Below, piece by piece: positions 556-59,318 of a stretch of DNA of 64,000 bases. A model generated the notes under the pieces. It made no database searches. It was not told where the DNA came from and worked only from the letters and a program-made list of their open reading frames with translations. Numbering within the stretch: position 1 is the first letter of the stretch; each line of letters begins with the position of its first letter. Where the stretch lies: assembly GCF_011397635.1 (NCBI RefSeq), contig NC_064764.1:41716955-41780954 (forward strand). The letters are read 5' to 3'. This stretch comes from Epinephelus fuscoguttatus (Eukaryota; Chordata; Actinopteri; Perciformes; Serranidae). The position numbers and the translations under genes were made by a program.

Positions 556-1695
556 ATGGAGACCTTGGAGGGAATTGAACTCTGCTTTCCACAACTCCTC
601 AACACCTCCTGCAGGAAGCCAACACGTCCTCACTTTGAATCATTGCTGATTTACATTGTGCTGTTCCCCATCTCTCTGCTCACTGCAGCTCTTAACCTGT
701 TGGTCATCATCTCTATCTCCCACTTCAAGTACCTCAATATTTCAATAATCATGAAACTGTTAGATAGTATTAATGAGTATGACTTGATCTCAAAACTGCG
801 AGGAAAAGTCTTTCTGCTTTATTTGAAATGATAATTGACTTTATAAAAAATGATAAATATATTGCTGGTCTTCCTCTGCAGGCAGCTTCACACCCCCACC
901 AACCTCCTCCTCCTCTCTCTGGCTGTTTCAGACTTCTTTGTGGGCCTCCTCATGTTCTTTCAAATTGTGCTCATAGATGGTTGCTGGATCTTTGGTGACA
1001 TCATGTGTGCTGTGTATCAGTATCTTGCATTCATTATTACCTCTAGCTCTGTAACAACCATGATGCTCATATCAGCCGATCGATATGTGGCTATTTGTTA
1101 TCCTCTGCAGTACTCCACTAAAGTCACACATAAAAGTGTTCAAGTCTGTGTTTGTCTGTGTTGGATAGGCTCTGTCATATTTCAAAGTTTCATTCTGCAG
1201 GACATCCTGAAACAACCAGGCAGGTATAACTCCTGCATTGGAGAGTGCATATTTGCTCTAAGCTCCTCTGCTGGACTTGCAGATGCTATTTTTACATTCA
1301 TTGTTCCCCTTTCTGTTATTGTTGTCCTGTACATGAGAGTATTTCTTGTAGCTGTGTCTCAGGCTCGTGCCATGCGATCTCGTATTGCAATTGTCACACT
1401 CCAGAAATCAGTGAGAGTAACTGCAAAAAAATCTGAGCTGAAAGCAGCCAGGACTCTTGGTGTTGTTGTAGTTGTGTTTCTAATATGTCTCTGCCCAGCT
1501 TACATCACCAGTTTTTTGAGCGAAGATAACATTGGTTCTTCATCTGGTGCCTTTATAACTTGTTTGTACTATTTTAACTCCTGTCTAAATCCTGTGATCT
1601 ATGCCTTTTTTTACCCCTGGTTTAGAAAATCAATTAAGCTCATTGCTACACTCAAGATACTACAACCTGGCTCCCGTGAGGCAAACATACTGTAG
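556..1695 (+). CDS. taar: TAAR-1: trace amine-associated receptor, class A GPCR (TAAR13c-like), intact
   Basis: Olfactory-type seven-transmembrane receptor expected in the ciliary membrane of olfactory sensory neurons, coupled to a Gs/Golf-type protein. Coding exons are 556-728 and 882-1695; the intron 729-881 has GT/AG ends and is phase 2, giving 328 residues. I chose the ATG at 556 because it gives the conserved METLE start with G at -3 and G at +4. Visible features: N-glycosylation site N16, N-terminal Cys 10 and 19, N1.50 in TM1, D2.50 (residue 75), Cys3.25 (100), DRY at 124-126, ECL2 Cys 176 and 180, and NPxxY followed by FYPWF in TM7, the TAAR fingerprint. Position 3.32 (residue 107) is Ala instead of Asp, while D5.42 (residue 192) is present; W6.48 is Leu. 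Polyadenylation signal AATAAA lies at 1823-1828. It is a close duplicate of TAAR-2. Family certain; the orthologue within teleost TAARs is not assigned. Confidence 0.94.
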
Positions 1696-2344
1696 AGAGT
1701 CTGCATGATGCCTGTATTTAGAGAGAAAATGTACTTGGTCACGGTGATGAGTAATTAAATACAGCAGATCATGTTCTGGATGAGTGTCTTTACACTGTAC
1801 TTGTTAAAACATAATAATCTCTAATAAACTTAAATACAACACTGAGGCTAGTTTATTGTTTTTAATATATTTTGGACAAAGCATCGTCTTTAGAATTGTG
1901 CAGTCTGCAAATATCAGTGGGATGCTAGTGAGTTAAACAAGGTTGGCAGTGGTTACCCATTAATATTTCATCATTCCATGAAACTTGGAGCTGTAGTGTT
2001 ACGGTTTGTCCCTGTGATTTGTATATTTCATTGTGTATTACTTTGATGCTTAGCAGTAATAGTTAGCAGTTATGCATCATTGAATACAAAAATCCACCTC
2101 CCACACTCACACAGGCCCCCTTGGTGATAGTACTTGGAGGCCAATATTATTGTTCGCTGAGGCTGTGGCACACTCATTTTTTGGGAAGATATCAGAATCT
2201 TGTCACACTAGCTTTTAGCTTTTAGACAAGGGGGCTGAAAAATACTTGTTGGTATCATGTGTTTAAAAGTGATAAAATAGCAATGAAAAATAATTTGTGA
2301 TTATTATTTTTTTGTAAACAATATGATTTATTCTACATTAAATC
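1696..2344. other. 3' flank of TAAR-1
   Basis: Non-coding. Bases about 1868-2150 align by eye with 14423-14695 behind TAAR-2, so the duplication that made the pair included at least 0.6 kb of 3' sequence. It contains the AATAAA at 1823-1828 and ends where the first LINE begins. Confidence 0.6.
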
Positions 2345-2347
2345 ACC

Positions 2348-3227
2348 TCATGGGACACCAATTACAAAACAAAACAAAACAGACACAAAAGGGGTAACAG
2401 CTACTGAGAAGCCTCTCTCACTGAGGTAGGAGGCGAACCACTTCAAGGCACTCCCCGAGACACCCACCAACTTACTGAGCCTGTCGAGCATGATATGGTG
2501 GTCTACAGTATCGAATGCTGCACTCAGGTCTAATAACACCAGTAAGCAGCATTTGCCTGCATGTGCAGCCATCATGATGTCATTAGACACTCTGAGGAGG
2601 GCTGTTTCTGTGGAGTGCTGCTGCCGAAAACCACACTGGAATTTATCTAACAGGCCTTGGGTGGTCAAGAAGGATATAATTTGGTTTGCTCCTACTTTCG
2701 CAAGGATTTTAGATATAAACAGCAGTTTGGACATGGGTCTGTAATTTTTGGGTGTGGAGGGGTCTAAGCTTGGCTTTTTGAGAAGCGGCTGCAGAGTAGT
2801 CTGTTTGAAAAATGATGGAGCACAGCCTGATTTCAGGGAGGTGTTAATAATGGAGACCAAGCTAGGGCCCACAGAGCTAAAAACCTCTTTCAGCAAGGAC
2901 GTTGGTAAGATGTCTAGTGGACTGGAGGAGGATTTCATGGTGCTCACTAGCTCAGTCAGATCCTGCAGAGTGATAGAGGAGAAACTGCTGAGAGAAGCCA
3001 GCCTTGATGGACAGGTTGGAGGGGAGGCAGCAGAGGGGGTGATACTAGCCCTGACACCAACAACGTTATTCACAAAAAAAGACCGAAAATTATTACAATC
3101 CTGATTGGAAGAAACAAGGACTGAGGGGAGTGGAGGACTGATAATGTCATTAATAGTCTTGAATAAGACTCTGGGGTTTCGCCTGCTGGAAGTGATCAGG
3201 TTAGCAAAATAAGCAGCCCTTTCATTC
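2348..3227 (-). pseudogene. LINE-A reverse transcriptase, N-terminal half
   Basis: The RT finger and first palm blocks are visible: KNYRPMSKLLFISKILAK, CGFRQQHSTETALL and the first catalytic aspartate in LLDLSAAFDTVDHH, followed by WFASYLSERGFSV. The open frame runs about 290 codons without a stop but ends before the YADD box, so it cannot encode an active enzyme. Its N-terminal residues in the open frame (up to 3271) are translated piggyBac sequence, not LINE. Confidence 0.85.
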
Positions 3228-13029: not shown

Positions 13030-13110
13030 ATGGATAGAGATAAATGTCTTGTATGCCAGAAAGCTTTGGTCAGACAGCTGCCAGAGGTCGGCAGCTTCTC
13101 CTCTCTGGTG

Positions 13111-14250
13111 ATGGAGACCTTGGAAGGAATTGAACTCTGCTTTCCACAACTCCTCAACACCTCCTGCAGGAAGCCAACACGTCCTCACTTTGAATCACTA
13201 CTGATTTACATTGCGCTGTCCCCCATCTCTCTGCTCACTGCAGCTCTTAACCTGCTGGTCATCATCTCTATCTCCCACTTCAAGTACCTCAATATTTTAT
13301 TAATCATGAAACTTTTAGATAGTATTAATGAGCATGACTTGATCTCAAAACTGCGAGGAAAAGTCTTTCTGCTTTATTTGAAATGATAATTGACTTTATA
13401 AAAAATGATAAATATATTGCTGGTCTTCCTCTGCAGGCAGCTTCACACCCCCACCAACCTCCTCCTCCTCTCTCTGGCTGTTTCAGACTTCTTTGTGGGC
13501 CTCCTCATGTTCTTTCAAATTGTGCTCATAGATGGTTGCTGGATCTTTGGTGACATCATGTGTGCTGTGTATCAGTATCTTTCATTCATTATTACCTCTA
13601 GCTCTGTAACAACCATGATGCTCATATCAGCCGATCGATATGTGGCTATTTGTTATCCTCTGCATTACTCCACTAAAGTCACACATAAAAGAGTTCAAGT
13701 CTGTGTTTGTCTGTGTTGGATAGGCTCTGTCATATTTCAAAGTTTCATTCTGCAGGACATCCTGAAACAACCAGACAGGTATAACTCCTGCTTTGGAGAG
13801 TGCATAATTGTCCTAAGCTCCTCTGCTGGACTTGCAGATGCTATTTTTACATTCCTTGCTCCCCTTTCTGTTATTGTTGTCCTGTACATGAGAGTATTTC
13901 TTGTAGCTGTGTCTCAGGCTCGTGCCATGCGATCTCGTATTGCGATTGTCACACTCCAGAAATCAGTGAAAGTAACTGCAAAAAAATCTGAGCTGAAAGC
14001 AGCCAGGACTCTTGGTGTTGTTGTAGTTGTGTTTCTAATATGTCTCTGCCCAGCTTACTGTTTCAGTTTATCAAATGAAGATAACAATAATTCTTCATCT
14101 GCTGCCTTTGTAATCTGTTTGTACTATTTTAACTCCTGTCTAAATCCTGTGATCTATGCCTTTTTTTACCCCTGGTTTAGAAAATCAATTAAGCTCATTG
14201 TCACATTTAAGATACTACAGCCTGGCTCCTGTGAGGCCAAGATGCTGTAG
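13111..14250 (+). CDS. taar: TAAR-2: trace amine-associated receptor (TAAR13c-like), intact
   Basis: Coding exons 13111-13283 and 13437-14250, intron 153 bp with GT/AG, phase 2, 328 residues. Nearly the same protein as TAAR-1; differences cluster in ECL2 and ECL3 (for example NSCFGECIIV against NSCIGECIFA, and CFSLSNEDNNN against ITSFLSEDNIG), where ligand access is decided. 3.32 is Ser rather than Asp (MCAVYQYLSF), D5.42 is kept (GLADAIF), W6.48 is Leu, and DRY and FYPWF are intact. Unlike TAAR-1, the frame is open upstream to an ATG at 13030, which would add 27 residues (MDRDKCLVCQKALVRQLPEV and on). I prefer 13111 because it matches every other copy and no signal-like segment is gained. 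Sited between Helitron debris and a Harbinger element. Confidence 0.94.
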
Positions 14251-19503: not shown

Positions 19504-19505
19504 TA

Positions 19506-21178: not shown

Positions 21179-22335
21179 ATGGAGACCTTGGAGGAATATG
21201 AACTCTGCTTTCCACAACTCCTCAACACCTCCTGCAGGAAGCCAATTCGGTCTTATTTTGAGGCCATGCTCATTTACATTGTGTTGTCCTCCATTTCTCT
21301 GTCCACTGCAGCTTTTAACCTGCTCGTCATCATCTCTATCTCCCACTTCAAGTAACTGAATATTACATCAATTTATGAAACTGTTAGATAGTACTAACAA
21401 ATATTGCTTGATCTCAAACTATTTTTTTTGGTATTTTAGTCATTGCTGTGTTTGCTTTTTTTTTCTAAATTATAATAAATACTATAAATAATAAATATAT
21501 TCTGGTCTTCCTCTGCAGGCAGCTCCACACCCCGACCAACCTCCTCCTCCTCTCTCTGGCTGTCTCAGATTTCTTTGTGGGCCCCCTCAATTTCTTCCAA
21601 ATTATGCTCATAGATGGTTGCTGGCTCCTCGGTAACATCATATGTACTCTGTATCAGTATGTAATATACATTATTACCTCTGCATCTATAGGAACCACAG
21701 TGCTTATATCAGTCGACCGATATGTGGCTATTTGTGATCCTCTGCAGTACTCCACTAAAGTCACAAAACAAAGAGTTCAAGTCTGTGTTTGTCTGTGTTG
21801 GACAGGTTCTATTTTCTTTCACAGCCTGCTGCTGATGGATAACCTGGAACAACCCGGCAAGTTTAATTCCTGCTCTGGAGAATGTGTGTTTGTCATCAAC
21901 TACATTGCCGGAATTGCAGATGTGTTATTGTCCTTTATCGGTCCTGTCACTGTCATCATAGTTCTGTACATGAGAGTATTTGTGGTGGCTGTGTCTCAGG
22001 CTCGTGCCGTGCGGTGTCATGTCACAGCTGTCACTCTCCATCAAACAGCAAAAGTAACTGTTAACAAATCTGAGCTGAAAGCAGCCAGGACTCTTGGTGT
22101 TGTCATTATTGTGTTTCTAATATGTATTTGTCCATATTTTTGTGTTGCACTATCAGGCCAAGACACCTTACTCAATGCTTCATCTGCTGCCTTTGTAATC
22201 TGTTTGTTCTACTTTAATTCCTGTCTGAATCCTGTGATCTATGCCTTTTTTTACCCCTGGTTTAGAAAATCTATTAAGCTCATTGTTACACTTAAGATAC
22301 TGCAGCCTGGCTCCCGTGAGGCAAACATGCTGTAG
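21179..22335 (+). CDS. taar: TAAR-3: trace amine-associated receptor (TAAR13c-like), intact
   Basis: Coding exons 21179-21351 and 21519-22335, intron 167 bp, GT/AG, phase 2, 329 residues. The second exon is open from QLHTPTN through the stop. DRY, ECL2 Cys pair (NSCSGEC) and NPxxY-FYPWF are present. 3.32 is Ile (CTLYQYVIY) and W6.48 is Ile (FLICICPYF), while D5.42 is kept (GIADVLL). TM2 shows VGPLNFFQIM where all paralogues except TAAR-5 have VGLLMFFQI, adding a proline and an asparagine. Its TM5-TM7 half is closest to TAAR-4 (both ALSGQDTLLNASSAAFVI), although TAAR-4 lies on the other strand 8 kb away. Expected olfactory amine receptor; ligand unknown. Confidence 0.93.
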
Positions 22336-39200: not shown

Positions 39201-41756
39201 TGTCTCTCGGACTGGACAGAAATAGCACATGATAAAGTATCCCAAAAAAATGCTTATTGATTATTTATGAGTGCATTTAGAGTAGAAATACACCATTACA
39301 ATATGTGTTTTTTTGTGTTTGGAACATAATGGAGCTCTGAACTGGTTAAGGTGGGGGTTTGTCATTTATGTACCTATTGCACAGTTTAAAGCAAAACGAG
39401 AAGAGGGGTTGCCTCAGCTGCTCTCAGCAACTCAAGAGGCTCTGTACTCTACAGGTAATACTCCTGTACTCACGAGCACGCATTCACACACTGAGAAAAG
39501 CATTAATGTGGCCAGCAAATCAGGACGAAATGCGTGCCGACTCCACAGTATTTAGGAAGGCAGTGTAGGGATTGAATGCTATGACACAATATCAACTGCT
39601 GCTTTGTTGCTGGGAAAGCCAGTGGCGAAGCGTTTGCAGTGTTCAACCCTTTCTGTGCCAGCCCCTCATAGGCTAGCCTTGTGTGTATGGAGGGTCTGGT
39701 GGAGCTTCAGCCACTGTGTGACTGTGGCATGAAGGTTTCCTTAATCTTGAAGACCTCATGGCAAGTCCAAGTTACTGGCTATGATCCACACATCCTAGTT
39801 ATCTTATGTCTAACCAAGTTGGGTTTGCAATCAGTTGGATGAAGAGCAGCCCCCTGCAGCTTGGTGCAATGCTAACGGTGTTGACTGTCATGCAGGCACT
39901 TGGGTTCATGGCGGCGGCAGCCCACCCGTGGTACCCGTTGCCAAGCCACACAAGTCACGCTTAGTTATCATTCCCCCCTCAGTATAGGACAACCTGAGAT
40001 ACTGTGGGTCCCCACAGCACCTGTTGCAGGAAACACCGCTGGCACAAGTGACCTCTGACATTAATGATTACGGATGCGTCCCTGACGGGGTGGGGAGGGA
40101 CCTGCCACCTAAAGCAGCTACCTCTGGGTTGAAAAAAGAAGCAACATGGAAGCAACAAAAACTGCAATTCCTAAAATGGCCACTTGATGCTGGCTCCAAA
40201 AGTGAGTCAGTCCCCACAGACAGCATGTTAAATTCCCCAACTCTACAGCAGAAGTAAAAAGCCTGGTACAAAAACAGTTTTCTTCTCTACAGCAACATCC
40301 CTTTTCCACAGGCCAGTTGCTAAAAGACAGTTGTCCTTCTACTGTTCTGTCTAATGTTATTAGGGCTTTCTGGGAAAAGGTGCAACACACAGTTCTTCAA
40401 ATAAAGAAAAAAACAAATGTTTTCCCTTTGAGGCTCATAATACGATAGCTGTTACAAACTCTGACAGGCTTGCTGCTGAGATTGTTAAGTACAACAGAAA
40501 ACTCTTTCAGATGGCTGGAAAGCAACACACAACGCAAACCTGACAGTCTGGCAAACGACTACAGAAAAGGGTCTGGAAAGTGGAAACAGGTGAGCAGGTA
40601 AATGAGAGAGTCAGGTGACTGGGACTGAAGGAAAAATCTGAGGGCAGCTGGTGGATGGATGGGGAATGACATGGCAAGTCCAGAGGATACATGGGTTTAG
40701 GGGAAGTAAGAAAAGACTAGAGACAGGGTCTGACTCAGTAAAATGAAACAACTGAGGCAGGCATCAAGTTAAGATGTACGCCCTTTCTGCCAGCATTCCT
40801 GAAGAGGGTTGGGCTGCATGTTCAGGTGCTGTTGGTGGCTCTAAATTGACCACACAGAGGACTGCAGAGAACCAAGAGCTGCTAAATGGCATCTCCCACT
40901 TCTGTGATTGGTCTGAAGTCAGTTGCCTGTGTCTTGTTAAGGCACCAATGCAACTGATGAATTTATTTTGAAAGAGACTGTATGCAAACTGTACATTTCC
41001 TGTGAAAACAGAAGTGTATTTTGAAAACAGACAATGCATGTAACAGGCTGAAGTTGACATGGTGTCCCAGAACGTCAACAACCAACACACCCAGGGTAGC
41101 TTGGACATCATATGTGGACGTGGAAAGTCCATGACCAAACGTGGACATGTGACGAGGTCACAGTGAGGATGAGTTGGATAAAGCGTCAGTATTTGTCCAG
41201 TTGGCATTGAGAGCAGGCTGGCTCCAAAATGTAACTTTGTCAAGTGAACATGTGGGTTTATCATTTTGCCATCAAAATTTAAGTTCATATCAAACTTCAG
41301 GCTGTAGGCCACGGTGTGTATTTAAACTGATGGCAATAAAACATGTGGGACTGAGGTCAGTGGCTGGGGCCTTCCTTCCTTATACGATGTATTCATTGTG
41401 CTCTTCTGTTGGCCTGTCAGAGTCAGCTGTATTTTGCATTATTTGACTCACATTGTGACTTATTTGGTAGACTATAGGCAAGGAGAAGAAGCGTAAGATG
41501 GAAATTGTGACCTCAGAATTTGGAGTTTGTATGTGTTTGTCTGTGTCTTTGTGACATGATGTAACTCTCCAAAGTTGTACATCGATTGCTTGGTGCTCAG
41601 TTTGTGACTGGCTGGCCTCAACTGGCCACACCTGTTGTAGGGCAGAAGGGCCAATAGGATTAGGTGGAGAAAACTTACAAATCAGCTGCATGATAGAGGG
41701 GGTTGGTCACAACACTGCCCGAGCTCAGCAGCCTAAGCTCTTCTTTATCTCTGATG

Positions 41757-42944
41757 ATGGAGACCCTGGAGGAAAGTGAACTCTGCTTTCCACAACTCCT
41801 CAACTCCTCCTGCAGGAAGCCAAAGCGTTCACTCACTGAGGCTGTGCTTCTTTACAGTCTTCTGTCCTTCATCTCTCTGCTCACTGTGATTCTCAACCTG
41901 CTGGTCGTCATCTCCATCTCACACTTCAAGTAACTGTCAATTCTATTTATTATGGTGGTAGATGTACAGAAACGAATTGTTCATAGAAAATGTCAGATCT
42001 TGTTATGTGTTGATAAATAACTTAAACACTGCTTTTATATTTTACCCATGGATTACATCTGCTAAATATTATAATGGACTTTCATTTGTTACTACAAACA
42101 ATAATACATGATGCTTTTTCAATCCAGGCAGCTCCACACCCCCACCAACTTCCTCCTCCTCTCTCTGGCTGTCTCAGATTTCTTCGTGGGCCTTCTCATG
42201 TTCTTCCAAATCATGCACATAGACGGCTGCTGGTTCCTCGGTGACTTCATGTGTGTTATAAATATTGTTTTAAGTTTCATTATTACTTCTTCCTCAGTAG
42301 GAACCATGGTGCTCATATCAGTCGACCGCTACGTAGCCATTTGTGATCCTCTGCATTACTCCACCAAAGTCACTGTGAGAAGAGTTAGAATCTGTGTTTG
42401 CCTTTATTGGGTCTATTCTGTTCTGTACATCAGTCTCATATTGAAAGGTAACTTGAAACAACCAGGCAGCTATAATTCCTGCTTTGGAGAGTGTGTGATT
42501 GTCCTTAACTATATCGCAGGAGTTGCTGACCTTATTTTGACCTTTATTTGTCCTGTAACTGTCATCATAACTCTGTATGTAAGAGTATTTGTGGTGGCTG
42601 TGTCTCAGGCTCGTGCTATGCGGTCTCATATTGCAGCAGTCACACTTCAGGGTTCAGTGAAAGTAACTGCTAATAAGTCTGAGCTGAAAGCAGCCAGGAC
42701 TCTCGGTGTGGTTGTAGTTGTGTTTCTGACATGCGTTGGCCCATATTTCTGTTCTTCTCTTGTAAACCAAGATAGCTTGTTTGGCATTGCTACTGTTGCC
42801 TTAGGGACCTGGTTGTTCTATTTTAACTCTTGTCTAAATCCAGTGATCTATGCTTTCTGCTACCCCTGGTTTGTAAAATCTATTAAGCTCATCATAACAT
42901 TCAAGATACTTCAGCCTGACTCCTGTGATGCCAGCGTACTGTAG
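41757..42944 (+). CDS. taar: TAAR-6: trace amine-associated receptor (TAAR13c-like), intact
   Basis: Coding exons 41757-41929 and 42128-42944, intron 198 bp, GT/AG, phase 2, 329 residues. Two ATGs stand in tandem (41754, 41757); the second has A at -3 and G at +4 and matches the METLE start of the other genes. 3.32 is Ser107 (MCVINIVLSF), D5.42 is kept (GVADLIL), W6.48 is Val (FLTCVGPYF), and the TM7 fingerprint is FCYPWF instead of FFYPWF. TM4 has LYWVYSV where others have LCW. It lies in the first of three tandem units, and its broken near-identical twin is TAAR-7. Expected olfactory receptor; without D3.32 a classical monoamine mode is unlikely. Confidence 0.94.
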
Positions 42945-43171
42945 AAAGAGACTGTGTGTTCACTGACATTTCATTTTTCTTTGGAGAAGGAATGAAGTAT
43001 TTATTGATGCTGCTGTATCTCAACGTCTTTTAACCCTTCTAATTTTGTGATACATACAGGAACTTCCATATAATGTGCCTCCTTCATTTTGTCGGCCTTG
43101 GACTCTTGCCCTATCAAGTCAGAGCCTCTGCATGATATGACCCATGTCATTGTTAGACAGTCAGAGAGTTT

Positions 43172-43410
43172 AAGTTTATTTCCTTTATTAATCCCCCTGA
43201 GGAGAAATTCAATGTTTTCACTCTTGCTTGTCAATTACACACAGGTCTGAAACACACACACATACACAAACAGGACCTATACATGCACAAAGTGGAGAGA
43301 TGTCAGAGTGAGGGGGCTGCCCTTGGTCAGGCGCCCCAAGTGGTTGGGGGGTTCAGTGTCCCTCCGGTTCCCAACCCAAGTCCCTATGGACTGAGCTACT
43401 GCTGCCCCCA
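43172..43410 (-). mobile_element. tRNA-derived SINE, reversed, unit 1
   Basis: Reverse complement of the SINE at 35621: TTTATTAATCCCCCTGAGGA at its 3' end and GGACTGAGCTACTGCTGCC at its tRNA-like 5' end. Duplicated with the unit at 48431-48671. Confidence 0.83.
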
Positions 43411-43852
43411 GCTCAGTCATCGTTAAATACTAAAGAAATAACAGTTTTGTGACACTTTAGTATTGACATCATCATCTTCATTACTCAGCCCCGGAAGTTG
43501 CTGCTTAGTTCCAACCTGCCAAGCTATCCAGCTGCTGTGTGTAAATGGGAAATAAATAATTTGTAAATTGATGTAAGATATCCATCCATCCATCCCTCCA
43601 TCTGCAGATGTCAGCAGATGTAAGATATCTATTATTATGATGTCATATATTTATATAATATATGAAAATGTAAGAGATAGACATATATATCATGCTGATA
43701 TAGGTTCAAGTGTTCATTTTCTCCAGTTAGTTTGGTTTTAATTCGTTATTTGATGCTATATACACAGTCTGACACTTGGACTTTTATTTTGGTACTTCTG
43801 CTGACCAGCAGTGTGCATTTGCATATTAGCTAAATATTTTGTTTCTCCAAGC

Positions 43853-44002
43853 ACATTTAGATTTAATATTTAACATTTCTATTTAACATTTAACATTTAG
43901 ATTTAGACGTATATTTAACATTTAGATTTAGATTCAACATTGAGATTTAACATTTAACATTTAGATTTAACATTTAGGTTTACATTAAATATTTAAAATT
44001 TA
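43853..44002. repeat. AT-rich minisatellite, unit 1
   Basis: Degenerate tandem copies of ATTTAACATTTAG, about 12-14 bases each. A matching copy is at 49115-49264. Confidence 0.8.
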
Positions 44003-44382
44003 ACTGTGACATTATATTTAGCATATTTCAAATATTGCTGTAAATGTGGAAAAAGGGAATTAAAAAATGCACACCACTCTTTTTAAAAGTTGTTTGAAGC
44101 TAAATGTGGCAAAATGTTATTTTCAGTGCGAGCCACTTTACAGACGGCACCCCATACCATACAGTGGTAATGGGTATGGTTAACATTACCACGTGCATTA
44201 GCCAATGTGGAAATTACTATGTCTTCATTGCTTAAAATTGCCATCATGTCTCGACTCACTCATATTCATCGTGTTCTTGCTGCAACATCCAATACAAGCC
44301 TACAGAGGAAACACAAGATGTCTTTATGTTGTCTGTTTTATTTACATATAATCAAACTTCATATTATATAATATTATATCAT

Positions 44383-44385
<3 letters not shown>

Positions 44386-44440
<55 letters not shown>

Positions 44441-44452
44441 CATACATACATA
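44386..44452. repeat. (TA)n at junction of units 1 and 2
   Basis: TA dinucleotides, then CATACATACA, ending exactly where unit 2 begins. The tract is absent before unit 1. Confidence 0.9.
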
Positions 44453-47016
44453 TGTCCCTCAGACTGGACAGAAATAGCACATGATAAAGTATCCCAAAAA
44501 AAATGCTTATTGATTATTTATGAGTGCATTTAGAGTAGAAATACACCATTACAATATGTGTTTTTTGTGTTTGGAACATAATGGAGCTCTGAACTGGTTA
44601 AGGTGGGGGTTTGTCATTCATGTACCTATTGCACAGTTTAAAGCAAAACGAGAAGAGGGGTTGCCTCAGCTGCTCTCAGCAACTCAAGAGGCTCTGTACT
44701 CTACAGGTAATACTCCTGTACTCACGAGCACGCATTCACACACTGAGAAAAGCATTAACGTGGCCAGCAAATCAGGACGAAATGCGTGCCGACTCCACAG
44801 TATTTAGGAAGGCAGTGTAGGGATTGAATGCTATGACACAATATCAACTGCTGCTTTGTTGCTGGGAAAGCCAGTGGCGAAGCGTTTGCAGTGTTCAACC
44901 CTTTCTGTGCCAGCCCCTCATAGGCTAGCCTTGTGTATGGAGGGTCTGGTGGAGCTTCAGCCACTGTGTGACTGTGGCATGAAGGTTTCCTTAATCTTGA
45001 AGACCTCATGGCAAGTCCAAGTTACTGGCTATGATCCACACATCCTAGTTATCTTATGTCTAACCAAGTTGGGTTTGCAATCAGTTGGATGAAGAGCAGC
45101 CCCCTGCAGCTTGGTGCAATGCTAACGGTGTTGACTGTCATGCAGGCACTTGGGTTCATGGCGGCGGCAGCCCACCCGTGGTACCCGTTGCCAAGCCACA
45201 CAAGTCACGCTTAGTTATCATTCCCCCCTCAGTATAGGACAACCTGAGATACTGTGGGTCCCCACAACACCTGTTGCAGGAAACACCGCTGGCACAAGTG
45301 ACCTCTGACATTAATGATTACGGATGCGTCCCTGACGGGGTGGGGAGGGACCTGCCACCTAAAGCAGCTACCTCTGGGTTGAAAAAAGAAACAACAAAAA
45401 CTGCAGTTCCTAAAATGGCCACTTGATGCTGGCTCCAAAAGTGAGTCAATCCCCACAGACAGCATGTTAAATTCCCAACTCTACAGCAGAAGTAAAAGCC
45501 TGATACAAAAAACAGTTTTCTTCTCTACAGCAACATCAGTTTTCCACAGGCCAGTTGCTAAAGACAGTTGTCCTTCTACTGTTCTGTCTAATGTTATTAG
45601 GGCTTTCTGGGAAAAGGTGCAACACATAGTTCTTCAAATTAAAAAAACAAACAAATGTTTTCCTTTGAGGCTCATAATACGATAGCTGTTACAAACTCTG
45701 ACAGGCTTGCTGCTGAGATTGTTAAATACAACGGAAAACTATTTCAGATGGCTGGAAAGCAACACACAATGCAAACCTGACAGTCTGGCAAACGACTGCA
45801 GAAAAGGGGCTGGTATTTGTACTGATAGAGCTGATGAGGGAAAGTGGAAACAGGTGAGCAGGTAAATGAGAGAGTCAGGTGACTGGGACTGAAGGACAAA
45901 TCTGAGGGCAGCTGGTGGATGGATGGGGAATGACATGGCAAGTCCAGAGGATACATGGGTTTAGGGGAAGTAAGAAAAGACTAGAGACAGGGTCTGACTC
46001 AGTAAAATGAAACAACTGAGGCAGGCATCAAGTTAAGATGTACGCCCTTTCTGCCAGCATTCCTGAAGAGGGTTGGGCTGCATGTTCAGGTGCTGTTGGT
46101 GGCTCTAAATTGACCACACAGAGGACTGCAGAGAACCAAGAGCTGTTAAATGGCATCTCCCACTTCTGTGATTGGTCTGAAGTCAGTTGCCTGTGTCTTG
46201 TTAAGGCATCAATGCAACTGATGAATTTATTTTGAAAGAGACTGTATCAAACTGTACATTTCCTGTGAAAACAGAAGTGTATTTTGAAAACAGACAATGC
46301 ATGTAACAGGCTGAAGTTGACATGGTGTCCCAGAACGTCAACAACCAACACACCCAGGGTAGCTTGGGCATCATATGTGGACGTGGAAAGTCCATGACCA
46401 AACGTGGACATGTGACGAGATCACAGTGAGGATGAGTTGGATAAAGCGTCAGTATTTGTCCAGTTGGCATTGAGAGCAGGCTGGCTCCAAAATGTAACTT
46501 TGTCAAGTGAACATGTGGGTTTATCATTTTGCCATCAAAATTTAAGTTCATATCAAACTTCAGGCTGTAGGCCACGGTGTGTATTTAAACTGATGGCAAT
46601 AAAACATGTGGGACTGAGGTCAGTGGCTGGGGCCTTCCTTCCTTATACGATGTATTCATTGTGCTCTTCTGTTGGCCTGTCAGAGTCAGCTGTATTTTGC
46701 ATTATTTGACTCACATTGTGACTTATTTGGTAGACTATAGGCAAGGAGAAGAAGCGTAAGATGGAAATTGTGACCTCAGAATTTGGAGTTTGTATGTGTT
46801 TGTCTGTGTCTTTGTGACATGATGTAACTCTCCAAAGTTGTACATCGATTGCTTGGTGCTCAGTTTGTGACTGGCTGGCCTCAACTGGCCACACCTGTTG
46901 TAGGGCAGAAGGGCCAATAGGATTAGGTGGAGAAACTTACAAATCAGCTGCATGATAGAGGGTTGGTCACAACACTGCCCGAGCTCAGCAGCCTAAGCTC
47001 TTCTTTATCTCTGATG

Positions 47017-48205
47017 ATGGAGACCCTGGAGGAAAGTGAACTCTGCTTTCCACAACTCCTCAACTCCTCCTGCAGGAAGCCAAAGCGTTCACTCACTGAG
47101 GCTGTGCTTCTTTACAGTCTTCTGTCCTTCATCTCTCTGCTCACTGTGATTCTCAACCTGCTGGTCGTCATCTCCATCTCACACTTCAAGTAACTGTCAA
47201 TTCTATTTATTATGGTGGTAGATGTACAGAAACGAATTGTTCATAGAAAATGTCAGATCTTGTTATGTGTTGATAAATAACTTAAACACTGCTTTTATAT
47301 TTTACCCATGGATTACATCTGCTAAATATTATAATGGACTTTCATTTGTTACTACAAACAATAATACATGATGCTCCTTTTTCAATCCAGGCAGCTCCAC
47401 ACCCCCACCAACTTCCTCCTCCTCTCTCTGGCTGTCTCAGATTTCTTCGTGGGCCTTCTCATGTTCTTCCAAATCATGCACATAGACGGCTGCTGGTTCC
47501 TCGGTGACTTCATGTGTGTTATAAATATTGTTTTAAGTTTCATTATTACTTCTTCCTCAGTAGGAACCATGGTGCTCATATCAGTCGACCAGCTCACGTA
47601 GCCATTTGTGATCCTCTGCATTACTCCACCAAAGTCACTGTGAGAAGAGTTAGAATCTGTGTTTGCCTTTATTGGGTCTATTCTGTTCTGTACATCAGTC
47701 TCATATTGAAAGGTAACTTGAAACAACCAGGCAGCTATAATTCCTGCTTTGGAGAGTGTGTGATTGTCCTTAACTATATCGCAGGAGTTGCTGACCTTAT
47801 TTTGACCTTTATTTGTCCTGTAACTGTCATCATAACTCTGTATGTAAGAGTATTTGTGGTGGCTGTGTCTCAGGCTCGTGCTATGCGGTCTCATATTGCA
47901 GCAGTCACACTTCAGGGTTCAGTGAAAGTAACTGCTAATAAGTCTGAGCTGAAAGCAGCCAGGACTCTCGGTGTGGTTGTAGTTGTGTTTCTGACATGCG
48001 TTGGCCCATATTTCTGTTCTTCTCTTGTAAACCAAGATAGCTTGTTTGGCATTGCTACTGTTGCCTTAGGGACCTGGTTGTTCTATTTTAACTCTTGTCT
48101 AAATCCAGTGATCTATGCTGCTACCCCTGGTTTGTAAAATCTATTAAGCTCATCATAACATTCAAGATACTTCAGCCTGACTCCTGTGATGCCAGCGTAC
48201 TGTAG
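47017..48205 (+). pseudogene. taar: TAAR-7: frameshifted near-copy of TAAR-6
   Basis: First exon 47017-47189 and second exon 47391-48205 align base for base with TAAR-6 except for a few small indels. At the DRY motif two bases are inserted (GTCGACCAGCTCACGTAG against GTCGACCGCTACGTAG), so the frame reads VDQLT and stops at 47599-47601. Near the TM7 fingerprint four bases (TTCT) are missing after ATCTATGCT, removing FCY. The two changes do not restore each other. As written, the gene yields only TM1 to TM3. Because the rest is so clean, either the inactivation is very recent or these are assembly errors in a duplicated region. Confidence 0.88.
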
Positions 48206-48430
48206 AAAGAGACTGTGTGTTCACTGACATTTCATTTTTCTTTGGAGAAGGAATGAAGTATTTATTGATGCTGCTGTATCTCAACGTCTTTTAACCCTTC
48301 TAATTTTGTGATACATACAGGAACTTCCATATAATGTGCCTCCTTCATTTTGTCGGCCTTGGACTCTTGCCCTATCAAGTCAGAGCCTCTGCATGATATG
48401 ACCCATGTCATTGTTAGACAGTCAGAGAGT

Positions 48431-48671
48431 TTAAGTTTATTTCCTTTATTAATCCCCCTGAGGAGAAATTCAATGTTTTCACTCTTGCTTGTCAATTACA
48501 CACAGGTCTGAAACACACACACATACACAAACAGGACCTATACATGCACAAAGTGGAGAGATGTCAGAGTGAGGGGGCTGCCCTTGGTCAGGCGCCCCAA
48601 GTGGTTGGGGGGTTCAGTGTCCCTCCGGTTCCCAACCCAAGTCCCTATGGACTGAGCTACTGCTGCCCCCA
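48431..48671 (-). mobile_element. tRNA-derived SINE, reversed, unit 2
   Basis: Copy of the SINE at 43172-43410 carried along by the tandem duplication, not an independent insertion. Confidence 0.83.
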
Positions 48672-49114
48672 GCTCAGTCATCGTTAAATACTAAAGAAAT
48701 AACAGTTTTGTGACACTTTAGTATTGACATCATCATCTTCATTACTCAGCCCCGGAAGTTGCTGCTTAGTTCCAACCTGCCAAGCTATCCAGCTGCTGTG
48801 TGTAAATGGGAAATAAATAATTTGTAAATTGATGTAAGATATCCATCCATCCATCCCTCCATCTGCAGATGTCAGCAGATGTAAGATATCTATTATTATG
48901 ATGTCATATATTTATATAATATATGAAAATGTAAGAGATAGACATATATATCATGCTGATATAGGTTCAAGTGTTCATTTTCTCCAGTTAGTTTGGTTTT
49001 AATTGCTTATTTGATGCTATATACACAGTCTGACACTTGGACTTTTATTTTGGTACTTCTGCTGACCAGCAGTGTGCATTTGCATATTAGCTAAATATTT
49101 TGTTTCTCCAAGCA

Positions 49115-49264
49115 CATTTAGATTTAATATTTAACATTTCTATTTAACATTTAACATTTAGATTTAGACGTATATTTAACATTTAGATTTAGATTCAACA
49201 TTGAGATTTAACATTTAACATTTAGATTTAACATTTAGGTTTACATTAAATATTTAAAATTTAA
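49115..49264. repeat. AT-rich minisatellite, unit 2
   Basis: Same ATTTAACATTTAG-type array as at 43853-44002. Confidence 0.8.
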
Positions 49265-49643
49265 CTGTGACATTATATTTAGCATATTTCAAATATTGCT
49301 GTAAATGTGGAAAAGGAATTAAAAAATGCACACCACTCTTTTTAAAAGTTGTTTGAAGCTAAATGTGGCAAAATGTTATTTTCAGTGCGAGCCACTTTAC
49401 AGACGGCACCCCATACCATACAGTGGTAATGGGTATGGTTAACATTACCACGTGCATTAGCCAATGTGGAAATTACTATGTCTTCATTGCTTAAAATTGC
49501 CATCATGTCTCTCGACTCACTCATATTCATCGTGTTCTTGCTGCAACATCCAATACAAGCCTACAGAGGAAACACAAGATGCCTTGATGATGTCAGGTTT
49601 CATTCCATATAATCAAACTTCATATTATATAATATTATATCAT

Positions 49644-49646
<3 letters not shown>

Positions 49647-49727
<81 letters not shown>

Positions 49728-49739: not shown

Positions 49740-52490
49740 TGTCCCTCAGACTGGACAGAAATAGCACATGATAAAGTATCCCAAAAAAAATGCTTATTGA
49801 TTATTTATGAGTGCATTTAGAGTAGAAATACACCATTACAATATGTGTTTTTTGTGTTTGGAACATAATGGAGCTCTGAACTGGTTAAGGTGGGGGTTTG
49901 TCATTCATGTACCTATTGCACAGTTTAAAGCAAAACGAGAAGAGGGGTTGCCTCAGCTGCTCTCAGCAACTCAAGAGGCTCTGTACTCTACAGGTAATAC
50001 TCCTGTACTCACGAGCACGCATTCACACACTGAGAAAAGCATTAACGTGGCCAGCAAATCAGGACGAAATGCGTGCCGACTCCACAGTATTTAGGAAGGC
50101 AGTGTAGGGATTGAATGCTATGACACAATATCAACTGCTGCTTTGTTGCTGGGAAAGCCAGTGGCGAAGCGTTTGCAGTGTTCAACCCTTTCTGTGCCAG
50201 CCCCTCATAGGCTAGCCTTGTGTGTATGGAGGGTCTGGTGGAGCTTCAGCCACTGTGTGACTGTGGCATGAAGGTTTCCTTAATCTTGAAGACCTCATGG
50301 CAAGTCCAAGTTACTGGCTATGATCCACACATCCTAGTTATCTTATGTCTAACCAAGTTGGGTTTGCAATCAGTTGGATGAAGAGCAGCCCCCTGCAGCT
50401 TGGTGCAATGCTAACGGTGTTGACTGTCATGCAGGCACTTGGGTTCATGGCGGCGGCAGCCCACCCGTGGTACCCGCTGCCACACAAGTCACGCTTAGTT
50501 ATCATTCCCCCTCAGTATAGGACAACCTGAGATACTGTGGGTCCCACAACACCTGTTGCAGGAAACACCGCTGGCACAAGTGACCTCTGACATTAATGAT
50601 TACGGATGCGTCCCTGACGGGGTGGGGAGGGACCTGCCACCTAAAGCAGCTACCTCTGGGTTGAAAAAAGAAACAACAAAAACTGCAGTTCCTAAAATGG
50701 CCACTTGATGCTGGCTCCAAAAGTGAGTCAATCCCCACAGACAGCATGTTAAATTCCCCAACTCTACAGCAGAAGTAAAAAGCCTGATACAAAAAAACAG
50801 TTTTCTTCTCTACAGCAACATCAGTTTTCCACAGGCCAGTTGCTAAAAGACAGTTGTCCTTCTACTGTTCTGTCTAATGTTATTAGGGCTTTCTGGGAAA
50901 AGGTGCAACACATAGTTCTTCAAATTAAAAAAAACAAACAAATGTTTTCCCTTTGAGGCTCATAATACGATAGCTGTTACAAACTCTGACAGGCTTGCTG
51001 CTGAGATTGTTAAATACAACAGAAAACTATTTCAGATGGCTGGAAAGCAACACACAATGCAAACCTGACAGTCTGGCAAACGACTGCAGAAAAGGGGCTG
51101 GTATTTGTACTGATAGAGCTGATGAGGGAAAGTGGAAACAGGTGAGCAGGTAAATGAGAGAGTCAGGTGACTGGGACTGAAGGAAAAATCTGAGGGCAGC
51201 TGGTGGATGGATGGGGAATGACATGGCAAGTCCAGAGGATACATGGGTTTAGGGGAAGTAAGAAAAGACTAGAGACAGGGTCTGACTCAGTAAAATGAAA
51301 CAACTGAGGCAGGCATCAAGTTAAGATGTACGCCCTTTCTGCCAGCATTCCTGAAGAGGGTTGGGCTGCATGTTCAGGTGCTGTTGGTGGCTCTAAATTG
51401 ACCACACAGAGGACTGCAGAGAACCAAGAGCTGTTAAATGGCATCTCCCACTTCTGTGATTGGTCTGAAGTCAGTTGCCTGTGTCTTGTTAAGGCATCAA
51501 TGCAACTGATGAATTTATTTTGAAAGAGACTGTATCAAACTGTACATTTCCTGTGAAAACAGAAGTGTATTTTGAAAACAGACAATGCATGTAACAGGCT
51601 GAAGTTGACATGGTGTCCCAGAACGTCAACAACCAACACACCCAGGGTAGCTTGGGCATCATATGTGGACGTGGAAAGTCCATGACCAAACGTGGACATG
51701 TGACGAGGTCACAGTGAGGATGAGTTGGATAAAGCGTCAGTATTTGTCCAGTTGGCATTGAGAGCAGGCTGGCTCCAAAATGTAACTTTGTCAAGTGAAC
51801 ATGTGGGTTTATCATTTTGCCATCAAAATTTAAGTTCATATCAAACTTCAGGCTGTAGGCCAAGATGTGTATTTAAACTGATGGCAATAAAACATGTGGG
51901 ACTGAGGTCAATGGCTGGGGCCTTCCTTCCTTATACGATGTATTCATTGTGCTCTTCTGTTGGCCTGTCAGAGTCAGCTGTATTTTGCATTATTTGACTC
52001 ACATTGTGACTTATTTGGTAGACTATAGGCAAGCAGAAGAAGTGTATGATGGAAATTGTGACCTCAGAGTTTGGAGTTCATGTGTGTTTGTCTGTGTCTT
52101 TGTGACATGATGTAACTCTCCAAAGTTGTACATCAATTGCTTGGTGCTCAGTTTGTGACTGGCTGGCCTCAACTGGCCACACCTGTTGTAGGGCAGAAGG
52201 GCCAATAGGATTAGGTGGAGAAAACTTACAAATCAGCTGCATGATAGAGGGGGTTGGTCACAACGCTGCCCGAGCTCAGCAGCCTAAGCTCTTCTTTATC
52301 TCTGATGATGGAGACCCTGGAGGAAAGTGAACTCTGCTTTCCACAACTCCTCAACTCCTCCTGCAGGAAGCCAAAGCGTCCACTCACTGAGGCTGTGCTT
52401 CTTTACAGTCTTCTGTCCTTCATCTCTCTGCTCACTGTGATTCTCAACCTGCTGGTCATCATCTCCATCTCACACTTCAAGTAGTAACAT
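49740..52490. repeat. Tandem unit 3 (partial) up to exon 1 of TAAR-8
   Basis: Near-identical to 39201-41935 and 44453-47195. The similarity collapses just after the splice donor of TAAR-8 exon 1, so this unit keeps the shared upstream region and exon 1 only. Confidence 0.9.
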
Positions 52491-53511
52491 ATCTAATCAA
52501 TTTACGAAAGTGATAGATATTCAAAAATTAATGGTTCAGCAAAAACAATTTAAGTTCAGATGTGGCTTTGTGTTGACCTATGATTTAAAACACTGCCTTG
52601 ACATTTTATTTGTGGATTACATCTGCTAAATATTAGAATGGAGTTGCAATTGATAGTACAAACAATTATACTTGATGCACCTCTTTCAATCCAGGCAGCT
52701 CCACACCCCCACCAACTTCCTCCTCCTCTCTCTGGCTGTCTCAGATTGCATCGTGGGCCTCTTCATGTTCTTTGAGATTTTCCTCACAGATGGCTGCTGG
52801 TTATTCGGTGACATCATGTGTGTCCTGCATCTGTATCTATCATATATTACTACCTCTGCCTCAGTAGGAACCATGGTGCTCATATCAGTCGACCGCTATT
52901 TTGCCATTTGCTATCCTCTGCATTACTCCACCAAAGTCACTGTGAAAGCAGTTTCAATCTCTGTTAGCCTCTGTTGGGTCTGTTCTCTTCTGTACAACAG
53001 TCTGATAATGATGGATAACTTGAAACAACCAGGCAGGTATCATTCCTGCTCTGGACAGTGTATGGTTGTCATTAACTATATTGCAGGGATTGCTGACCTT
53101 ATTTTGACCTTTATTGGTCCTGTCACTGTCATCATAGTTCTGTATATGAGAGTATTTGTGGTGGCTGTGTCTCAGGCTCGAGCCATGCGGTCTCATATTG
53201 CAGCAGTCTCACAACAAAAATTAGGGAAAGTAACTGCTAAGAAATGTGAGATGAAAGCAGCCAGGACTCTTGGTGTTGTTGTACTTGTGTTTCTGATATG
53301 CCTTAGCCCATTTTACTGTATCTCTCTTGCAGGCCAGGACAGCTTATTTGGCGTGACCTCTTTGCCCTTAGAGACCTGGCTGATCTTTTTTAACTCTTGT
53401 CTAAATCCAGTGATCTATGCTTTCTGCTACCCCTGGTTTCTCAGATCCATTAAGCTCATTGTCACATTTAAGATATTTCAGCCTGACTCCTGTGATGCCA
53501 GCGTACTGTAG
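52308..53511 (+). CDS. taar: TAAR-8: trace amine-associated receptor (TAAR13c-like), intact, mosaic
   Basis: Coding exons 52308-52480 and 52695-53511, intron 214 bp, GT/AG, phase 2, 329 residues. The first exon differs from that of TAAR-6 by two residues only, but the second exon is clearly distinct: VGLFMFFEIFLTDGCW in TM2, VLHLYLSYITTSA in TM3, YFAICYPLHY after DR, and TM6 FLICLSPFY. 3.32 is Ser107, D5.42 is kept (GIADLIL), W6.48 is Leu. IL3 has KCEMKAAR instead of KSELKAAR. So an old divergent receptor body has acquired a unit-type promoter region and exon 1. Expected olfactory receptor; ligand unknown. Confidence 0.94.
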
Positions 53512-55053: not shown

Positions 55054-55956
55054 CAGTCAATCAATTTTATTTATAAAGCCCAACATCACAAATCACAATT
55101 TGCCTCACAGGGCTTTACAGCATACGACATCCCTCTCAGCTGATCAGGAAAAACTCAGGAAAAACTCAACCAAAAAAAGACCTTTAACAGGAAAAAATGA
55201 TAGAAACCTCAGGAAGAGCAACTGAGGAGGGATCCCTCTTCCAGGACGGACAGACGTGCAATAGATGTTGTACAGAACAGATCAGCATAATAAATTAACA
55301 GTAATCCATATGACACAATGAGACAGAAAGAGAGAGAAAGAGAAAGAGAGAGAGAGAGAGAAGGGGAGAAGGAGAGAAGGTGCCCGGTGTATTATAGGGG
55401 GGTCCTCCGGCAGACTAGGCCTAAGTCAGCCTAACTAGGGGCTGGTACAGGGCAAGCCTGAGCCAGCCCTAACTATAAGCTTTATCAAAGAGGAAAGTCT
55501 TAAGTCTAGTCTTAAATGTGGAGACGGTGTCTGCCTCCCGGACCGTAACAGGAAGATGATTCCACAGGAGAGGAGCCTGATAGCTGAAGGCTCTGGCTCC
55601 TGATCTACTTTTGGAGACTTTAGGGACCACGAGTAACCCTGCGTTCTCAGAACGCAGAGTTCTGGTGGGATAATATGGCACTATGAGCTCTCTAAGATAT
55701 GACGGAGCTTGACCATTTAGAGCTTTATAAGTTAACAGTAGGATTTTAAATTCAATTCTGGATTTTACAGGGAGCCAGTGCAGAGAAGCTAAAACAGGAG
55801 AAATATGATCTCGTTTCTTAGTTCCTGTTAGTACACGTGCTGCTGCATTCTGAATTAGCTGGAGAGTTTTTAAGGACTTACTAGAGCTACCTGATAATAG
55901 AGAGTTACAGTAATCCAGCCTTGAGGTAACAAAAGCGTGGACCAATTTTTCTGCAG
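55054..55956 (-). mobile_element. LINE-E: L2-type ORF2 end with its 3' UTR
   Basis: The minus strand reads the C-terminal ORF2 region (about 55955-55469, [18 protein letters not shown] to [10 protein letters not shown]), then the 3' UTR, including a GA-rich stretch (55320-55380), ending at 55054 with ATAAATAAAATTGATTGACT. 5'-truncated. The protein part is the same as LINE-C. Here ORF and UTR are in normal order, which exposes the inverted order at 26818. Confidence 0.87.
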
Positions 55957-57341: not shown

Positions 57342-57375
<34 letters not shown>

Positions 57376-57423
57376 CATTCATTCATTCATTCATTCATTC
57401 ATTCATTAATTCATTCATTCACT
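57342..57423. repeat. (TGAT)n / (TTCA)n microsatellite
   Basis: About nine TGAT units turning into about ten TTCA units. Confidence 0.95.
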
Positions 57424-57645
57424 ATCCATAACCGCTTCTTCTGTTAAGGGTCACAGGGTGGCTGGAGTGTATCCCAGCTGTCATTGGGTGAGAGACGGGT
57501 TACACCATGAACAGGTCACAAGGCTATTACAGGGCTGACACATAGAGAAAGACAACCATCCACACTCACATTCACACCAATTAACCTGCATGTCTTTGGA
57601 CTGTGGGAGGAAGCTGGGGCACCTGGAGGAAACCCACCAAAAAAC
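57417..57645. mobile_element. Dispersed fish retroposon fragment
   Basis: CCATAACCGCTTCTTCTGTT, GGGTCACAGGGTGGCTGGAG, ATCCCAGCTGTCATTGGGTG and AACCTGCATGTCTTTGGACT form a sequence very common in fish genomes. I recall it as a LINE-related repeat but cannot name it with certainty. Confidence 0.65.
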
Positions 57646-58120
57646 TTATTATATCAAAAGGTGTCATCCAAGCATCGACATCAGGCATTGCATTTACACC
57701 AACAGCCTCATTACACTGTCTTGATGCAGACATAGTGACATTAAAACAGGATTAATCAGAAAGAGGAACATTGATGATATTAGAGATATCTATTTCAGTA
57801 CCCTTTGTCATGACCAAATCTAATGTGTCCCATCCATATTTATTGATATTACAGCTCAGAAGGTTCAAAAGGTTGAAAACAAAGAATGGAAGTCCTGCTG
57901 AGTCAAAAGTAGCTACACTGAAACTTGGGAGTTCATGTGTGTTTGTGTGTGCTGTTGTGAAGTGACGTAATTCTCTCAGCTCAGTTTGTGACTGGCTGGC
58001 CACACCTGCAGTACAGCAAAAGGGCTGATGGGACGGAGTGGAGAAAAGTGATAAATCACCTGTGAGAGGTTTGGTCAAAAAGCAGAGCCCAGCAGCCTCT
58101 CATCTGATCCTTTATCTCTG
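57646..58120. other. 5' flank of TAAR-9
   Basis: No gene. From about 57930 it resembles, more distantly, the 41530-41750 upstream region of TAAR-6 (CAGTTTGTGACTGGCTGGCC and CACACCTG are shared). Confidence 0.5.
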
Positions 58121-58123
58121 ATG

Positions 58124-59318
58124 ATGGAGACCCTGGAAGAAAGTGAACTCTGCTTTCCACAACTCCTCAACTCCTCCTGCAGGAAGCCAAAGCGTTCACT
58201 CACTGAGGCTGTGCTTCTTTACAGTTTTCTGTCCTTTATCGCTCTGCTCACTGTGACTCTCAACCTGCTGGTCATCATCTCCATCTCACACTTCAAGTAG
58301 TAAATTATCAATTCTATTTATTATGGTGATAGATGTACAGAAATGAATGGTTATTGGAAAATGTCAGATCTTGTTATGTGTTGATAAATAACTTAAACAC
58401 TGCTTTTATATTTTACCCATGGATTACATCTGCTAAATATTATAATGGACTTTCATTTGTTACTGCAAACAATAATACATGATGCTCCTTTTTCAATCCA
58501 GGCAGCTCCACACCCCCACCAACTTCCTCCTCCTCTCTCTGGCTGTCTCAGATTTCATCGTGGGCCTTCTCATGTTCTTTCAAATCATGCGCATAGATGG
58601 CTGCTGGTTCCTCGGTGACTTCATGTGTGTTATACATACTGTTTTAAGTTTCATTATTACTTCTTCCTCAGTAGGAACCATGGTGCTCATATCAGTCGAC
58701 CGCTACGTAGCCATTTGTGATCCTCTGCATTACCCCACCAAAGTCACTGTGAGAAGAGTTAGAATCTGTGTTTGCCTTTGTTGGGGCTGTTCTGTTCTAT
58801 ACGACAGTCTCATATTGAAAGATAACTTGAAACAACCAGGCAGCTATAATTCCTGCTCTGGAGAGTGTGTGTTTGCCCTTAACTACATCGCAGGAGTTGT
58901 TGACCTTATTTTGACCTTTATTTGTCCCATAACTGCCATCATAACTCTGTATGTAAGAGTATTTGTGGTGGCTGTGTCTCAGGCTCGTGCTATGCGGTCT
59001 CATATTACAGCAGTCAGGCGTCAGGGTTCAGTGAAAGTAACTGCTAATAAGTCTGAGCTGAAAGCAGCCAGGACTCTCGGTGTGGTTGTAGTTGTGTTTT
59101 TGTCATGCCTTGGCCCATATTTCTGTTCTGCTTTTGTAGACCAAGATAGCTTGTTTGGCATTGCTACTGTTGCCTTAGGGACCTGGTTGTTCTATTTTAA
59201 CTCTTGTCTAAATCCAATGATCTATGCTTTCTGCTACCCCTGGTTTGTAAAATCCATTAAGCTCATTGTCACATTTAAGATATTTCAGCCTGACTCCTGT
59301 GATGCCAGCGTACTGTAG
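58124..59318 (+). CDS. taar: TAAR-9: trace amine-associated receptor (TAAR13c-like), intact, mosaic
   Basis: Coding exons 58124-58296 and 58502-59318, intron 205 bp, GT/AG, phase 2, 329 residues. The first exon is short and easily missed: METLEESELCFPQLLNSSCR starts at the second of two tandem ATGs (58121, 58124). Most of the coding sequence is TAAR-6-like (QIMRIDGCWFLGDFMCVIHT), with 3.32 Ser107, D5.42 kept (GVVDLIL) and W6.48 Leu (FLSCLGPYF). The TM7 motif is NPMIYAFCYPWF. From about 59252 the sequence switches to TAAR-8 type (SIKLIVTFKIFQPDSCDASV), and the following 1.8 kb of flank is TAAR-8's. So a recombinant but fully open gene. Confidence 0.94.

Follow-up and report, generated by a model that had tools for sequence, protein, structure and literature searches.

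A 64,000-nucleotide stretch of the Epinephelus fuscoguttatus genome (contig NC_064764.1, our C13, positions 41716955-41780954; hereafter the window) contains eight intact TAAR (amine-odour receptor) genes, each of two exons, together with one broken copy, and is a slice of a larger array that runs from about 41.70 to 41.97 Mb of C13. All eight intact genes carry Asp at position 5.42 on transmembrane helix 5 (TM5), and only two of them, T4 (D107) and T5 (D108), carry a second Asp at 3.32 on TM3. We consider it probable that this is part of a large tandem array of olfactory TAARs of teleost clade III, descended from a dual-acid ancestor, in which Asp5.42 stayed as the anchor while Asp3.32 was lost repeatedly and kept in only a few copies. 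T1-T9 denote the TAAR copies of the window and L-numbers the copies retrieved by a genome search; the gene models are predictions spliced from DNA alone, and residues in the window were read on the eight intact genes by counting, alignment and model.

556 to 728, plus strand: T1 exon 1, spliced DNA model, with GT donor
882 to 1695, plus strand: T1 exon 2, A107 at 3.32 (GCA, 1027) and D192 at 5.42
13030 to 13283, plus strand: T2 exon 1 as the longest open frame; 27 codons into it comes a conserved start (METLEG)
13437 to 14250, plus strand: T2 exon 2, Ser at 3.32 (TCA, 13582) and Asp at 5.42
21179 to 21351, plus strand: T3 exon 1, spliced DNA model
21519 to 22335, plus strand: T3 exon 2, I107 at 3.32 (ATA, 21664) and D192 at 5.42
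29558 to 30374, minus strand: T4 exon 2, dual-acid, D107 (GAC, first base 30229) and D192
30566 to 30738, minus strand: T4 exon 1, spliced DNA model
35935 to 36107, plus strand: T5 exon 1, spliced DNA model, with GC donor
36347 to 37184, plus strand: T5 exon 2, dual-acid, D108 (GAT, 36495) and D193
41754 to 41929, plus strand: T6 exon 1, spliced DNA model
42128 to 42944, plus strand: T6 exon 2, S108 at 3.32 (AGT, 42273) and D193
47014 to 48205, plus strand: T7, broken near-copy of T6, ends read from the T6/T7 alignment
52305 to 52480, plus strand: T8 exon 1, spliced DNA model
52695 to 53511, plus strand: T8 exon 2, S108 at 3.32 (TCA, 52840) and D193
58121 to 58296, plus strand: T9 exon 1, spliced DNA model
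58502 to 59318, plus strand: T9 exon 2, S108 at 3.32 (AGT, 58647) and D193

The six intact genes without an acid at 3.32 have Ala (T1), Ile (T3) or Ser (T2, T6, T8 and T9) there, the Ser of T2 being S134, or residue 107 if the second in-frame Met (METLEG) starts the protein. The same 3.32 residues are obtained when counting back from D3.49, and an alignment with the TAAR13 chains of zebrafish leads to the same columns for 3.32 and 5.42 rather than placing a different residue at 3.32. The reading of a first-pass annotation made from the letters alone, with Asp3.32 confined to T4 and T5 and Ala, Ile or Ser elsewhere, is thereby confirmed by the models and the TAAR13 alignment. Its count of nine copies, all with Asp5.42, holds for the residue, which is present in the eight intact genes and also in the pieces of T7, but not for the number of genes, as T7 is a broken near-copy of T6.

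The genome (1.05 Gb) was searched with exon 2 of T4, and only the best candidates were scored, so that the counts that follow are lower bounds. By our own reading of the search listing there are at least 55 full-length class-III-like copies, at 41.70-41.97, 38.25-38.45 and 32.7 Mb of C13 and also, among the matches listed, on C10, C24, C3 and C9. We aligned and treed 53 of them; two more copies on C24 (L066 and L067) were read at 3.32 only and have Ser there. L064 and L065, which are incomplete or broken, were excluded from the alignment, as were other fragments in the search listing. Asp occupies 5.42 in 52 of the 53 aligned copies, the remaining one (L037) having Glu, so that its presence cannot be put down to chance. 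At 3.32, by contrast, the tally is Ser 25, Gly 9, Ala 6, Asp 4, Pro 3, Cys 3, Ile 1, Asn 1 and Glu 1, and an acid is found in five copies only: T4, T5, L025 (41.86 Mb, outside the window), and L021 and L020 at 32.7 Mb, L020 having the Glu. The impression that the dual-acid genes sit in the middle of the cluster, which the first-pass annotation had recorded, applies inside the window alone and is an edge effect, since the array continues and more acid-bearing copies lie beyond it. The close pair L020/L021 (C13:32.72-32.74 Mb), with Glu and Asp at 3.32, forms a natural D/E swap far from the main array.

The identity of these copies as TAARs is supported by several features. The rhodopsin-family seven-transmembrane domain (7tm_1) was scored above cut-off in all four window exon-2 proteins submitted, of the eight intact genes, and the frames joined across a single intron in loop 1 are open in all eight DNA-only models. 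The TM7 fingerprint NSxxNPxx[YH]xxxYxWF, the mark of a TAAR, is present in 51 of the 53 aligned copies, including every intact window gene; the two without it, L036 and L037, may be damaged copies and were retained in the alignment. An Rfam scan gave no matches.

A protein tree of 60 rows was built without the 3.32 and 5.42 columns. Twelve of its rows bear an acid at 3.32, including five added outgroups (four zebrafish TAAR13 and one TAAR1) and two genes from C5, L062 and L063, which are dual-acid and cluster with zebrafish TAAR13 (99/97). Three further C5 copies (L068-L070), left outside the trees and read at 3.32 only, all have Asp. Within the class-III set the acid-bearing rows fall in four separate places, namely T4, T5, L025 and L020/L021; T4 is the sister of T3 (100/98), and L020/L021 join T1, T2 and L012 (96/68). 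The fewest changes between acid and none over the 60 rows is 4, of which the starred branches alone force 3, compared with a mean of 11.2 when the states are shuffled. In approximately unbiased (AU) tests, whose groups were defined by the trait and which were run after the tree had been seen, uniting the 48 non-acid rows in one clade was rejected (p = 4.45e-6), as was uniting the five acid rows of the class-III set (p = 5.7e-101). The possibility that the genes without Asp share one loss, with the dual-acid genes as outgroups, is thus rejected on this tree.

If regain is disallowed, the number of losses equals the number of maximal non-acid clades, which is 5 on the best protein tree and, over 1000 bootstrap trees, 5 (170 trees), 6 (104), 7 (507), 8 (118), 9 (99) or 10 (2). 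The non-acid window genes fall into three separate clades in 999 of the 1000. Without regain, the sequences would then call for at least five separate losses of Asp3.32 on the protein trees, the window genes being spread over three non-acid clades. The earlier suggestion that Asp3.32 was lost more than once stands to this extent; the differing residues at 3.32, on which it had leaned, do not by themselves count losses, and regain is possible. Quick DNA trees need 5 changes without TM3, 5 for the 5' part and 4 for the 3' part, and T3 stays with T4 in all three. As these trees also scatter the acid rows, exchange of whole gene halves was rejected as the cause of the scatter, although a tract as short as TM3 may have been exchanged.

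The codons around 3.32 favour retention with repeated loss, without proving it. Ser at this position is encoded as both TCN and AGY: T6 and T9, which are sisters of L019, use AGT, whereas TCA or TCT is found in the T8 group and TCA in T2; T1 (Ala) has GCA. T4 and T5 read YYxLD, L025 reads YYVVD and L019 reads YYVLN, the AAT of L019 at 3.32 being one base away from the GAT of T5. Tyr3.29 is found in all five acid rows of the set and in 21 of the 48 non-acid rows; together with the YYVLN of L019, its sharing fits retention and a recent loss.

Several observations weigh against repeated loss as the whole account. Once gains are allowed, four changes are enough on the tree on which losses alone need five, two of them possibly being regains (T4; L020/L021), so that the loss-only history is not the shortest, and neither a change count nor a tree can tell loss from gain. 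The base of the protein tree is poorly resolved, T5 and L025 lying near it without support (17/22, 19/70), both are placed elsewhere in the DNA tree without TM3, and the tree program warned of a long TAAR1 branch. In the DNA trees (without TM3, 5' and 3') no more than 4, 2 and 2 changes are forced by the starred branches, and the totals are not far below the shuffled means of 6.7, 6.8 and 6.7. Moreover, over the 12 codons from 3.26 to 3.37, T3 and T4 show 11 base differences where 3.0 are expected (p = 1.7e-4), and TATCAGTAT (3.28-3.30) is common to T3 and T1/T2 and not found in T4, for which a small conversion tract fits as well as descent. At least three acid changes are seen in 12 of 266 columns, 3.32 among them, and the 11 others mean that repeated change of this kind is not unique to 3.32. 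Finally, the replacement-to-silent ratio of 1.06 in TM3, against 0.59 elsewhere, is a contrast that reaches only p = 0.075 in Fisher's test.

A rival history, which we regard as possible although rather unlikely, has one or two early losses of Asp3.32 followed by regain in T4 (and in L020/L021), either through point change or through short ectopic exchange of the TM3 tract with a dual-acid neighbour, for example T5, as donor. The count of four changes when gains are allowed speaks for it, as do the excess of TM3 differences between sisters as close as T3 and T4, the location of T4 between T3 and T5 and the TAT at 3.29 and YYxLD that T4 and T5 share. The 17 sister pairs examined differ at 68 bases over 3.26-3.37 where 25 are expected, and in TM3 silent change is raised (odds ratio 2.1, p = 0.0096), which would follow from imported tracts, along with a strong rise in replacement change (p = 1.5e-13). 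Two segments are hot, TM3 and alignment columns 232-249, the latter corresponding by position to the third outer loop and the outer end of TM7. Going from ATA to GAC, however, takes a change at all three bases, and T4 would also have to regain Tyr3.29; in addition, T4 and T5 differ by 12 and 14 bases in the 15-codon blocks at alignment columns 30 and 45, compared with 6 and 11 for T3 and T4. A bolder version makes the array a reversible switchboard, in which neighbours swap short TM3 tracts and receptors move repeatedly between one-acid (monoamine) and two-acid (diamine) recognition, T3/T4 being a fresh pair in opposite states; we give this little credence. The simple published picture of a single loss, with the dual-acid genes as old outgroups, appears highly improbable: the near-basal, though unsupported, positions of T5 and L025 would suit it, as would the TAAR13 genes lying outside the set, but the single non-acid clade fails the AU test under the model used, and T4 pairs closely with T3 (Ile) both on the protein tree and on all three DNA trees.

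A different objection is that 3.32 simply changes fast and that the Asp of T4 and T5 arose there neutrally, without any role in diamine binding. Position 3.32 takes nine different residues, with more taken by 8 of 266 columns, and it is one of the two columns with the most replacement differences. None of the 53 aligned copies has W6.48 (F 22, L 13, Y 6, S 4, I 3, N 3, V 2), a residue retained in the TAAR13 and TAAR1 rows; the pocket is therefore not the same as that of TAAR13 or TAAR1, and is unlike that of the solved diamine receptors. We nevertheless think a neutral origin improbable, because the acid copies stand at four places in the tree, at exactly the classic position of the amine anchor, and one of them has the conservative Glu.

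We favour repeated loss with retention in a few copies, and suggest the following course. The ancestor of the set would have carried Asp3.32 as well as Asp5.42, like TAAR13, and would have been able to hold two positive charges, with Asp5.42 on TM5 kept as the amine anchor, a function attributed by analogy with zebrafish work. T4, T5, L025 and L021, and L020 as Glu, would retain the dual-acid state; these five most likely answer to diamines, and T4 and T5 may be expected to grip both diamine ends. In the remaining lineages Asp3.32 would have disappeared independently, with a minimum of five losses on the protein trees when regain is disallowed, and the genes concerned would have become receptors binding one amine through Asp5.42 alone. 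Judged from present codons, the putative routes join GAT, AAT and AGT in one group, lead to GCA, TCA and TCT in others and to GGN, ATA and CCC elsewhere. Since TM3 near 3.32 is among the two fastest-changing parts, loss of Asp3.32 may be seen as one outcome of a general diversification of the pocket after duplication.

Much of this framework is established. The shift of the amine salt bridge and the dual-acid class, to which the first-pass annotation had alluded, are real and published: the available text of Li et al. (2015; PMC4695389) describes clade III TAARs that recognize amines through Asp5.42 and dual-acid diamine receptors, gives Asp5.42 in 91 of 112 zebrafish TAARs, and notes the same pattern for medaka, stickleback, fugu and salmon. 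In that account, mutating either Asp of zebrafish dual-acid TAARs reduced or abolished responses to di-cationic ligands, and neutralizing Asp5.42 abolished monoamine responses in the two clade III zebrafish TAARs tested. The present set shares with those clade III receptors a common Asp5.42, a mostly lost Asp3.32 and a few dual-acid members, and T4 and T5 share both acids with zebrafish TAAR13 and TAAR14d. The model published there, however, moves the salt bridge from TM3 to TM5 by one gain followed by one loss of Asp3.32, whereas here genes with and without the acid are interleaved in the tree. A survey of 702 TAAR-type receptors (PMC8890504) has the same two-step model and, in its accessible portion, does not take up the question of whether clade III lost Asp3.32 repeatedly; it does report a cartilaginous-fish subfamily with dual-acid receptors, and the dual state is therefore old. 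Our literature search, with most subscription journals outside its reach, found no statement of repeated Asp3.32 loss within clade III. The receptor type and the Asp5.42/dual-acid pattern are thus known, and what is added is a modest extension, namely the interleaving and the replacement of a single loss by several changes.

T4 and T5 were also considered as TAAR13 itself. Exon 2 of T4 is closest to the solved zebrafish TAAR13 chains (9m2s, 9m3s, 9m40 and 9m0x; E 3e-53 to 3e-51), and both of its acids align with those of the chains. The protein tree places T4 and T5 in the class-III clade instead (100/100); unlike TAAR13 they have an intron and lack W6.48, and TAAR13-like genes are found elsewhere in the genome, on C5. 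According to the part of PMC8032801 available, TAAR13 is present in 11 of 56 Percomorphaceae genomes, and the acid-bearing copies suggest that this group, which has often lost TAAR13, has another source of diamine receptors besides it. If the interleaving holds across percomorph fish, Asp3.32 would have been lost repeatedly, and sister pairs of the T3/T4 kind would be natural test cases for how a G protein-coupled receptor pocket re-orients its ligand.

The reading frame of T7 is interrupted twice, first at the DRY motif and then where TM7 ends; its pieces retain the Ser at 3.32 together with the Asp at 5.42. When the gene is aligned with T6, flanks included, 1955 of 1968 positions match, leaving 1 substitution and 12 gap positions. 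Both lie within a head-to-tail duplication:

39201 to 44453: first unit of the 5.3-kb duplication, with T6
44453 to 49714: second unit of the 5.3-kb duplication, with T7

The units, which meet at base 44453, are 98.05% identical, with 38 mismatches and 65 gap positions in 5290. T7 was rejected as an independent case because of its near-identity to T6 within this duplication and, being a frameshifted T6 duplicate, leaves eight independent genes rather than nine. Within the T6/T7 gene region the differences between the units are almost all insertions or deletions. The segment 39201-49714 is compatible with a duplication of recent date as well as with one falsely introduced by the assembly.

The introns of the set are of two kinds. 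In 34 of the 53 aligned copies, including T5 (36108-36346), the intron starts with GC (TTCAG|GCAGAG and close variants), and in 12 (T1-T4, T6, T8, T9, L012, L014, L016, L017 and L019) with GT (TTCAA|GTA), as at 729-881 and 13284-13436. L042 has GT exactly where other copies have GC, which supports the GC donor site. L044, L059 and L060 have no intron; for L020 and L021 the search patterns brought up no exon 1, and the tally counts these two and L061 as copies whose exon 1 was not found or not retrieved. The surroundings of the two splice sites are alike, as they might be after intron gain by duplication. The two-exon TAARs of cichlids, stickleback, medaka and fugu, as presented in the accessible text of PMC4415300, likewise have a loop-1 intron, a Phe-Arg/Phe-Lys junction, tandem copies and pseudogenes; the intron there is of phase 0, whereas the sole splice-like reading found here lies two bases later, mostly with a GC donor. 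The two-exon TAARs of this genome would accordingly suit a percomorph-like fish. L031, L032, L033 and L036 each have two donor sites resembling the end of exon 1, about 350 bases apart, upstream of exon 2, as if exon 1 had been duplicated.

In the copies at 38.25-38.45 Mb of C13, Asp is found at 3.42 in 14 among L024-L053, most others having Asn or Thr. Between the receptor genes of the window lie open reading frames that resemble reverse transcriptase, labelled by eye, at 26322-26808, at 55469-55955 and between 2348 and 11665; the first two are inverted copies of each other with 99.2% identity.

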